A DNA stretch of 64,000 nt from Lentzea sp. NBRC 102530 (GTDB taxonomy: Bacteria; Actinomycetota; Actinomycetes; Mycobacteriales; Pseudonocardiaceae): positions 496,001-560,000 of the forward strand of contig NZ_BSTF01000004.1 in the NCBI RefSeq assembly GCF_030269365.1. The letters are read 5' to 3'. Every line of letters begins with the position of its first letter. Position 1 is the stretch's first letter. This document shows, piece after piece, positions 20,379-52,360 of the stretch. The notes beneath the pieces were generated by a model. The model made no database searches, was not told where the DNA came from, and worked only from the letters and a program-made list of their open reading frames with translations. The position numbers and the translations under genes are program-made.

Positions 20379-20410
20379 GGGGCGCCGGTGGATTCCACCG
20401 GCGCCCCTTT
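20379..20410 (+). terminator. Strong hairpin terminator after clpX
   Basis: GGGGCGCCGGTGG and its exact complement (20379-20391, 20395-20407) form a 13-bp stem with loop ATT, followed by TTT. It begins 32 nt after the clpX stop. Confidence 0.85.
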
Positions 20411-20554
20411 CGCATGTCCGGGGTCAGAAGGGGCGCCCACCCCGGACCGAAGAGGCAAGAAGAGGGAAGCAGGGAAAGAAGAGGAGCAGGGGAGAAGGGA
20501 CAGGGAGGGTGCGGCCGGAGCAGGAACGCCATGCGGTGGTGCCAACCGCAGTCG
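20411..20554. other. Non-coding stretch with a second hairpin and a polypurine tract
   Basis: No credible gene is present: the open frames here have low-complexity compositions. Two elements are visible. GTCCGGGGT and ACCCCGGAC (20416-20424, 20439-20447) form a 9-bp hairpin. From about 20448 to 20509 the plus strand is almost entirely purine, with only a few C residues. The remainder up to 20926 is the dispersed repeat described separately and the promoter of the next gene. Confidence 0.6.
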
Positions 20555-20905
20555 TCAACGCAGAGCGACCACGTGCCCAGGCCCGGCGCGCGGTGCCAAC
20601 CGGACAGCCAAAGGCGTAAGCCGCCCACGTACGAGTCCTGGCGTGGCGACGCGGAGCGAGCCCGAACGGGCTGATGCCCACCACCGAGCCGGTTCCCCCT
20701 GCCTTGGCGATGGAGGCTTCACCTTGAGGGGGCGGGGTGCCAACCTGTTCGGTCCGGCCGGGGCTCTTTCACCCCGGCTTGTGAGGCCGCGAATGCGCCC
20801 CGCCAGAGGCTCAAGGTCAAGCCCCAATCGCACCCCAACTCTCTTTCGTCCCGACCCAACCGGACCACCCTCGCAACCGCAGCCCGACCAACAGAACGCG
20901 ACCAG
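20555..20905 (-). repeat. Diverged dispersed intergenic repeat, copy A
   Basis: Read on the minus strand, this segment aligns with 51485-51720 on the plus strand. Shared landmarks, in order, are GGCTGCGG, GGGGTGCGAT.GGGGCTTGAC, GAGCCTCTGGCGGGG, CACGCCAGG, GGCGGCTTACG/GGTCGGCTTGCG, GGCTGTCC and GTGGTCG...TGCGTTG. Copy A carries roughly 110 nt extra in the middle (near 20665-20785). Both copies lie just downstream of the terminator of a housekeeping gene. No terminal inverted repeats or transposase are visible. Confidence 0.7.
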
Positions 20906-20932
20906 CCCGCCCCCGCGACTAGGCTGATGACC

Positions 20933-51424: not shown

Positions 51425-51440
51425 TCTGGTCCGGCTTTGA

Positions 51441-51474
51441 GGGGACGTGCCGGCTTGCGCCGGCGCGTCCCCTT
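51441..51474 (+). terminator. Hairpin terminator after ndk
   Basis: GGGGACGTGCCGGC and GCCGGCGCGTCCCC (51441-51454, 51459-51472) pair throughout with one G-U, loop TTGC, followed by TT. It starts 16 nt past the stop. Confidence 0.8.
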
Positions 51475-51484
51475 CCTGTTCCAG

Positions 51485-51720
51485 CGGGGTTGGTTGCGTT
51501 TGCCGGGTCCTGGCTGCGGGGTCGCGCGGGTCGGTTCGACCATGTGGGGTGCGATCGGGGCTTGACGTCGAGCCTCTGGCGGGGGCGCTTTCGGCTTCAC
51601 CACGCCAGGTTTCGCAGGTGGTCGGCTTGCGATGCCGGCTGTCCAATCGAGTGCGCGCACCTGGCCAAGACGGTGGTCGGCTTGCGTTGGCGAGTGCGGC
51701 CGGCACCGCTTCCAATGCCT
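51485..51720 (+). repeat. Diverged dispersed intergenic repeat, copy B
   Basis: Plus-strand counterpart of 20555-20905. It lies directly after the ndk terminator and lacks the middle part present in copy A. Inside it, GTGGTCGGCTTGCG occurs twice (51618-51631 and 51673-51686), a duplication also traceable in copy A in diverged form. No coding frame is credible. The rest of this 307-nt gap (51721-51781) is C-rich and low in complexity, without a visible signal. Confidence 0.7.
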
Positions 51721-51781
51721 CGGCGCCACCCGCCTTCGACACCTTCACACCGCCGCCTCCACCTTCGCTGCCCCTGCGCCC

Positions 51782-52360
51782 TCACCGCCGTCGCGGGCTG
51801 CTGCCCAAGCCCCCTGCCGCGGCCCCGTTGAGCGTGGTGCCCTCCGGGTAGCCGAGTGGCAGGTACATCCACACGTCGTCCCAGCGCTCCGTCCCCACGG
51901 CAATGGCGTTGGGCATCCGCCCGCACTCCCGAAACCCGAGGCTCTCGTACAGCTCGATGGCGCCGTGGTTGTTGCCGCGCACCCCGAGCATCAGGATTTC
52001 GAGGCTTGCGGAGCGGGCGTTGGCGATGAGGCCCTCCATCACCTGCCTGCCCAGTCCGAGGCCGCGGGCCGACGGGTGCGCCATGATCTGCTGGACCTCG
52101 GCCCGGTGCCCGAACACGGCGGTCGAGCCCCGGCGCCACAGGCCCACCGCGCGCACCACGCCGTCCACCTGGACCGCGCAGAACGCGGCGTCACCATCGC
52201 GGACCTGCTTCAGCACACCGTCCAACCAGGTCGAAATGCGCTCGAAGGAGGGAGGCGAGTGGTAGCCGACGGCTCCGCCCGCGGCCACCACGTCGTGGAC
52301 CACCGCGTGGATCTCGGTGCGGAGGTGGTCGTCGGCTTCCGAGAGCCAGAGCAGCGTCAT
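51782..52360 (-). CDS. GNAT-family N-acetyltransferase
   Basis: A 192-residue acetyl-CoA-dependent acetyltransferase. The start is ATG 52360, and TACGAT (reverse strand of 52367-52372) lies 6 nt upstream, so the mRNA may be leaderless. The acetyl-CoA loop is RGLGLGRQVMEGL (about residues 105-117), preceded by the strand VQQIMAHPSA, and followed by ILMLGVRGNNHGAIELYESLGFRECG, the standard GNAT C-terminal half. The substrate is unknown; the sequence is like single-domain small-molecule or antibiotic acetyltransferases. It is divergent from the ABC exporter genes across 55 nt. Confidence 0.88.
   Translation of the reverse strand: MTLLWLSEADDHLRTEIHAVVHDVVAAGGAVGYHSPPSFERISTWLDGVLKQVRDGDAAFCAVQVDGVVRAVGLWRRGSTAVFGHRAEVQQIMAHPSARGLGLGRQVMEGLIANARSASLEILMLGVRGNNHGAIELYESLGFRECGRMPNAIAVGTERWDDVWMYLPLGYPEGTTLNGAAAGGLGSSPRRR

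Follow-up and report, generated by a model that had tools for sequence, protein, structure and literature searches.

Two related sequences lie downstream of clpX and ndk

The window, a 64,000-nt stretch of DNA, belongs to the genome of a Lentzea (9.53 Mb in 72 contigs; G000 below). Two related intergenic sequences were found in it: copy A, in the gap after clpX (minus strand, approximately 20539..20909), and copy B, in the gap after ndk (plus strand, approximately 51478..51699). The limits of copy A were drawn from an alignment of 24 genomic copies and a genome search, those of copy B from the genome search and the copy alignment; the ends of both are approximate. A terminator-like hairpin precedes each copy (20379-20408 for A, 51441-51472 for B), and neither copy contains a transposase or a believable gene, in agreement on both counts with a first-pass annotation made from the sequence alone. 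This annotation had also claimed that the minus strand of the clpX gap aligns with the plus strand of the ndk gap. Alignment of the minus strand of 20420-20930 with the plus strand of 51425-51860 bore the claim out: the strict local score was 74, against a mean of 23.9 and a maximum of 35 for 500 dinucleotide shuffles, and a lenient local alignment scored 64 against a shuffle maximum of 37.5. In the other relative orientation the two gaps scored only 23 (strict) and 21.5 (lenient). A score no better than that of shuffled sequence, together with a lack of further copies, had been named as grounds for dismissing the repeat; neither was observed.

Copy A is nearly complete. At its centre lies an imperfect palindrome, hereafter the core (20707..20831, minus strand), which showed folding z-scores of -5.76 on the minus strand and -4.83 on the plus strand, and whose pairing is backed by covariation over 45 cores. 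Its 5′ outer arm, GCGATTGGGGCTTGACCTTGAG (20810..20831, minus strand), was recognized from arm-pattern matches; the 3′ outer arm (20707..20728, minus strand) has diverged and, read on the plus strand, differs from the arm pattern at three positions. A second, small hairpin, AGCCCGTTCGGGCT (20659..20672, minus strand), is located in the 3′ part of the repeat; most aligned copies retain it. In copy B the greater part of the core is gone; its 5′ outer arm, GCGATCGGGGCTTGACGTCGAG (51551..51572, plus strand), is left and matches the arm pattern. The two copies differ by a single gap of ∼137 nt. Since the palindrome is wholly or partly kept in the other 23 aligned copies, and copy B breaks off within it, this difference is read as a loss in copy B; the first-pass annotation had put it at 110 nt and had left the choice between insertion in A and loss in B.

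The repeat is numerous in the genome and appears specific to Lentzea

At E ≤ 0.01, copy A had 43 matches in the window genome and copy B had 51. In the best 19 for copy A, A itself included, the aligned part of the 391-nt query was 285-391 nt long and the identity 77-100%. The core-arm pattern, allowing up to three mismatches, matched 69 times (34 + 35), while the reversed pattern used as a control did not match at all; when clustered within 150 nt, these matches correspond to 48 places. The numerous family predicted from two copies in the window is therefore present. Twenty-four copies aligned in one orientation indicated a repeat unit of up to ∼390 nt. In the window genome 24 copies lie outside called ORFs, 14 in tandem gene settings, seven in convergent and one in a divergent setting, with two left unassigned (the settings were derived with a crude GC3 gene caller); those in tandem settings point seven one way and seven the other. 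The core is thus dispersed between genes as an imperfect palindrome, as REP sequences are in REP/RAYT systems.

When 60 genomes were searched with a 411-nt query, matches came from 22, all in the genus of the window (22 of its 24 members, none of the 36 others). Similarly, the arm pattern with at most one mismatch was found in 21 of 297 genomes of the family, corresponding to 21 of the 24 genus members and none of the 273 others; the reversed arm gave one match in each of two of the 297 genomes. Among the matches listed, the arm-bearing contigs were from Lentzea, some of them labelled Nocardia sp. NRRL S-836. Searches of plasmid and phage collections returned no relevant match to the repeat. 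These distributions suggest a Lentzea-specific family scattered through the genomes of the genus.

The core is kept by compensating changes

The palindrome at the centre of the family is ∼125 nt long. Its outer arm, of 16 nt, is strongly conserved, its inner helix covaries, and its internal loop is asymmetric. Covariation, a check proposed in the first-pass annotation, was assessed in 45 representatives with less than 93% identity, taken from 137 distinct cores. In the 30 pairs considered, 22 in the outer helix and 8 in the inner one, 94.8% of the cells were Watson-Crick. Sliding the partner by 1-3 columns lowered this value to 15.5-34.4%, and 1000 row shuffles averaged 84.6% and did not exceed 86.6%. 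Two-sided changes occur in the inner helix (for example GC to AT, or CG to TA) as well as in the outer one, where pair 2 can be CG, GC or AT. The structure of the core is therefore maintained by compensating changes. The spacers between the helices are unequal, the 5′ one being 7 nt in 43 of the 45 cores and the 3′ one 2-4 nt, and core length varies from 95 to 127 nt with no regard to frame.

Three cores folded on both strands showed z-scores from -4.8 to -10.3, while those of the whole 361-nt repeat (-0.26 and -1.01) were not unusual. The mismatches present in the chosen orientation were A-C in 45 cases and G-T in six, a bias that gives a mere hint of strand because 40 of the 45 A-C mismatches sit in two columns. 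An Rfam search with the copy A region and five loci yielded no match at a gathering score. The suggestion that the repeat is a structured RNA stands as regards structure in the ∼125-nt core, not as regards the repeat as a whole.

A related core forms the ends of a DUF222-HNH element

In several Lentzea genomes, cores occur as an inverted pair around one ORF containing both PF02720 (DUF222) and PF01844 (HNH). This element is multicopy, measures 1.6-2.3 kb and consists of a single gene with a core at its ends; these terminal cores, termed T-type, are related to that of the window. Of 114 core-bearing stretches listed, 24 hold an ORF matching an HNH regular expression, a few of these being short pieces. 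Forty DUF222 loci were fetched with their flanks, 32 of them from four genomes (G019, G004, G015 and G007). All 32 had a core on at least one side, although that of locus L389 is just a 40-nt piece, and 26 had cores on both sides, an enzyme gene between two inverted palindromes as in REP/RAYT systems; an inverted repeat of 61-388 nt was present in 29. The flanking-core counts are favoured by the sampling, since the loci were picked for their good match to a protein that had been discovered by way of cores; core density would lead one to expect, roughly, a core beside fewer than 1% of random genes. Twenty elements with both ends found were 1553-2251 nt long; their ends recur, and no direct target repeat was seen by eye. 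Comparison of 17 copies (136 pairs) gave dN/dS values of 0.09-0.46, with a median of 0.26. A second core subfamily, in inverted arrangement, therefore forms the ends of a multicopy DUF222-HNH element under purifying selection.

The window-type core was not found as an inverted pair around a gene in the loci read. The core is common to the window-type repeat and the DUF222 elements, while their outer flanks and ends differ. Degenerate islands of GGTTGCGT, GGTCGCCTT and GGTTCCAGCGGGG flank many cores on one or both sides (L135, L141, L171 and L227 are examples); they are absent at some empty sites and around several G019 elements.

Genome G023 has a different arrangement. None of its seven DUF222 loci had the core, but six showed an inverted repeat of 117-198 nt with a quite different palindrome, which also presents compensating changes (fold z -9.85). 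At L408 and L410-L414 this is a near-perfect hairpin of ∼60 nt, ACGTTGGCATTTTCG ... CGAAAATGCCAACGT, the inner stem of which changes in step between copies. Locus L415 had neither core nor inverted repeat, and no flanking inverted repeat was found at 11 low-copy Lentzea DUF222 loci. Over the 24 genomes, and counting pieces, DUF222 matches numbered 10-22 in seven and 0-7 in the other 17.

DUF222 genes were present in 64 of 81 genomes searched across the order, often in many copies. Inverted ends bearing a hairpin were seen at none of 30 DUF222 loci from other genera, and short, weak inverted repeats at three of 20; in G327, from another genus, the DUF222 units are ∼1.4 kb long and lack a flanking inverted repeat. 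At L443, from another genus of the same family, a DUF222 gene lies between two near-perfect palindromes (982-1027 and 2526-2574 of that locus) that are unlike each other. To our knowledge, DUF222 is a large actinobacterial family with no assigned function. A structure predicted from 17 DUF222-HNH sequences was poor (mean pLDDT 49.8), and a sequence search of the PDB at E ≤ 0.1 found no relative. An assignment to IscB (NCBIfam) was rejected, its 20.5 bits being far below the 175-bit cut-off.

Occupied and empty sites in related genomes

The window genome was alone among 24 clpX loci in having a core in the gap. The downstream gene of G002 was not found at its expected place, and the one arm-like match of G023 lay beyond the gap. 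The clpX gaps of the other genomes range from 4 to ∼882 nt. The three genomes closest by clpX (G006, G005 and G009; loci L267, L268 and L269) hold unrelated, repeat-rich gaps of 417-882 nt in place of copy A. A core arm was likewise present at the ndk locus of the window genome only, of 23 considered; this count leaves out L309 and a second G023 match, L314, and no downstream gene was found for L311. In many relatives (for example L292, L294, L297 and L299) the ndk gap contains, in place of copy B and after a CCTGGGGCTCCGCCCCAGACCCC block, another long palindrome around GGGGTGTCAACTCGACGAAAAGCGTGTCGAGTTGACACCCC. Its stem bases change in step between species, and it looks like a second repeat family.

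Ten element sites, seven solo and three with DUF222, entered a flank search, and four of them were compared residue by residue. Solo site L137 was empty in G014 and G016. At solo site L163, G011 was empty, and G014 and G016 kept remnants that lack the core. At L183, such remnants were found in G016, and G014 and G017 were empty. G012 and G022 lacked the DUF222 element of L149. An arm scan allowing up to two mismatches in 14 nt found no match in the ten intervals of relatives named for these four sites. The DUF222 element at L380 was absent between the flanks in six of six relatives, three of which hold another gene-sized stretch there. Because the gaps diverge, the exact joints between filled and empty sites cannot be read, and it is with approximate joints that neither terminal inverted repeats nor a target duplication of the window-type unit was seen by eye in the alignments and the filled/empty comparisons. 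The repeat is dispersed between genes, its occupancy of a given site differs between related genomes, and deletion has repeatedly removed its hairpin. Copy number, and presence or absence at loci in related genomes, support the earlier idea of an old non-autonomous element.

Over the 24 genomes the correlation between cores and DUF222 matches was weak (Spearman 0.18, p 0.39), although arms were somewhat more numerous in genomes with at least 10 DUF222 matches (p 0.049). No DUF222 match was found in G008, a genome with 46 arm matches. G009, G006 and G000 are arm-rich and have one or two diverged DUF222 genes; no core was found beside those examined.

Insertion sequences break the core at a fixed point

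At L220, an IS110-type gene (PF01548, PF02371) is part of an element whose right end joins GACTTCGGGG of the core, while the left end of another copy joins GGGGCTTGA. The same element ends were found at L139, L171 and L192, from L. aerocolonigenes. Both junction types, GGGGCTTGA and GACTTCGGGG, thus place insertion at a fixed point of the palindrome, as for IS110 elements. In the window genome seven contig ends carry one identical sequence, joined to GGGGCTTGAC of the core in the six that were read, and five further contig ends break at the complementary place of the core and carry another sequence. This is most simply explained by one element inserted many times at one point, an element known in G000 from its ends, at contig ends. 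At least 12 contig ends of this genome lie inside cores broken by an insertion sequence, and the assembly breaks there. The core would therefore serve, secondarily, as a landing site for insertion sequences, an IS110-type one among them. One report (PMC1525189) describes REPs as targets of IS110 elements. The Lentzea palindrome resembles these REPs in being broken at one point by insertion sequences, although it is not a described REP and the insertion sequence of the window genome is known from its ends.

Comparison with known systems

In REP/RAYT systems, as presented in PMC2817692, an enzyme gene lies between two inverted palindromes and solo palindromes occur as well. The Lentzea family shares with the REP/BIME and RAYT sequences described there the dispersed, intergenic, imperfect palindromes, the solo copies, the lineage-specific hairpin sequence and the enzyme gene flanked by two inverted palindromes. 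It differs in that the gene between the cores codes for a DUF222-HNH protein rather than a Y1 tyrosine (HUH) transposase, that the palindrome is ∼125 nt long within a unit of up to ∼390 nt and has tens rather than more than 100 copies, and that enzyme and repeat numbers show no clear correlation over genomes.

The REP13E12 repeat genes of actinobacteria are DUF222-HNH genes, according to PMC10589994 and PMC13061034. The T-type element agrees with this description in being a multicopy gene with both domains in one ORF (the window copies are geneless), and many DUF222 copies are also found in other genera of the order. Unlike 50 DUF222 loci of other genera, three of which had short, weak inverted repeats, the Lentzea elements have inverted, hairpin-bearing ends; REP13E12 itself enters this comparison by its description. 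Like bacterial MITEs, the window repeat is small, non-coding, hairpin-containing, dispersed and non-autonomous; unlike them, it shows neither terminal inverted repeats nor a target duplication in its window-type unit, and no matching IS of a known family was found. A literature search by title and abstract, with most subscription journals outside its scope, returned neither hairpin ends of DUF222-HNH genes nor a palindrome family of Lentzea. What is new is that in several Lentzea a DUF222-HNH element is bounded on both sides by related cores in inverted orientation. The palindrome as the centre of the repeat, and its links to DUF222-HNH elements and to insertion sequences, go beyond the first-pass annotation.

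Origin of the window copies

The presence of a related hairpin at both ends of the DUF222-HNH gene hints at how the repeats spread. We favour, at about even strength, the reading that copies A and B belong, as non-autonomous and decaying members, to a mobile family specific to Lentzea and centred on the palindrome, that its spread was driven by DUF222-HNH proteins, and that insertion sequences use its members as landing sites. The window copies may then be relics of a REP/RAYT-like system whose enzyme would be DUF222-HNH; this protein, or a lost relative, would have moved the window subfamily, which has nothing but the core in common with the DUF222 elements. The core hairpin would be the recognition site of the endonuclease of the element. 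If the ends were cut in a folded or cruciform state, subsequent repair or replication could copy the element with no duplication of the target. The window copies and other solo end modules would be moved in trans, much as RAYT transposases are thought to move REPs, or might be left-over single ends. A broader version, in which DUF222-HNH proteins recognize lineage-specific hairpins at their own ends and mobilize both their gene and solo modules, with IS110-type elements exploiting the hairpins, is tentative and rather doubtful.

Against a role for DUF222-HNH stand the weak correlation over genomes, the core-rich genomes without flanked DUF222 genes, the other genera without such ends and the distinct outer ends of the window subfamily. 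The first two of these observations (the core-rich genomes concerned being many) fit a second explanation, which we hold to be somewhat less probable: REP-like palindromes would be spread by another enzyme, such as a RAYT or some other HUH transposase, and the DUF222-HNH genes, as hitch-hikers or homing genes, would have inserted between palindromes or taken them over as their ends. The G327 units of ∼1.4 kb with no flanking inverted repeat are in line with this, as is G023, where T-like solo cores coexist with DUF222 elements carrying a different palindrome. Yet the same G023 elements have an independent hairpin, of other sequence, at their ends, the two-sided association of DUF222 genes and cores is tight in four genomes, and no other enzyme gene lies between paired cores in the loci read; all three count against this explanation.

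A service to the host, the element being kept for its structure as a bidirectional terminator, a stabilizer of mRNA 3′-ends, a protein-binding palindrome or a structured RNA, would account for the covarying hairpin and for a location between genes with one divergent setting among the 22 determined. The excess of A-C over G-T mismatches (45 to 6) would also agree with G-U tolerance on one transcribed strand, 40 of the 45 being in two columns. However, presence and absence vary site by site between close genomes and the core is often deleted, copy B included; the even split of orientations in tandem settings, together with the Rfam result, disfavours a host RNA. We consider such a service unlikely. 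Decayed coding DNA, also raised in the first-pass annotation because short translated peptides of the two copies are similar, is far less probable still. The likeness of the peptides is real, but we read it as a by-product of the conserved palindrome arm: core lengths ignore frame, indels between copies are many, conservation follows base pairing, and no reading frame was seen by eye to be kept across the 24 aligned copies.

An element with defined, covarying hairpin ends provides a testable substrate for DUF222 proteins. If the spread by DUF222-HNH proteins is correct, an HNH-based route would join the few known ways in which bacterial palindromic repeats spread, and it would account for a genus-wide repeat that coincides with assembly breaks and with the landing of other insertion sequences.
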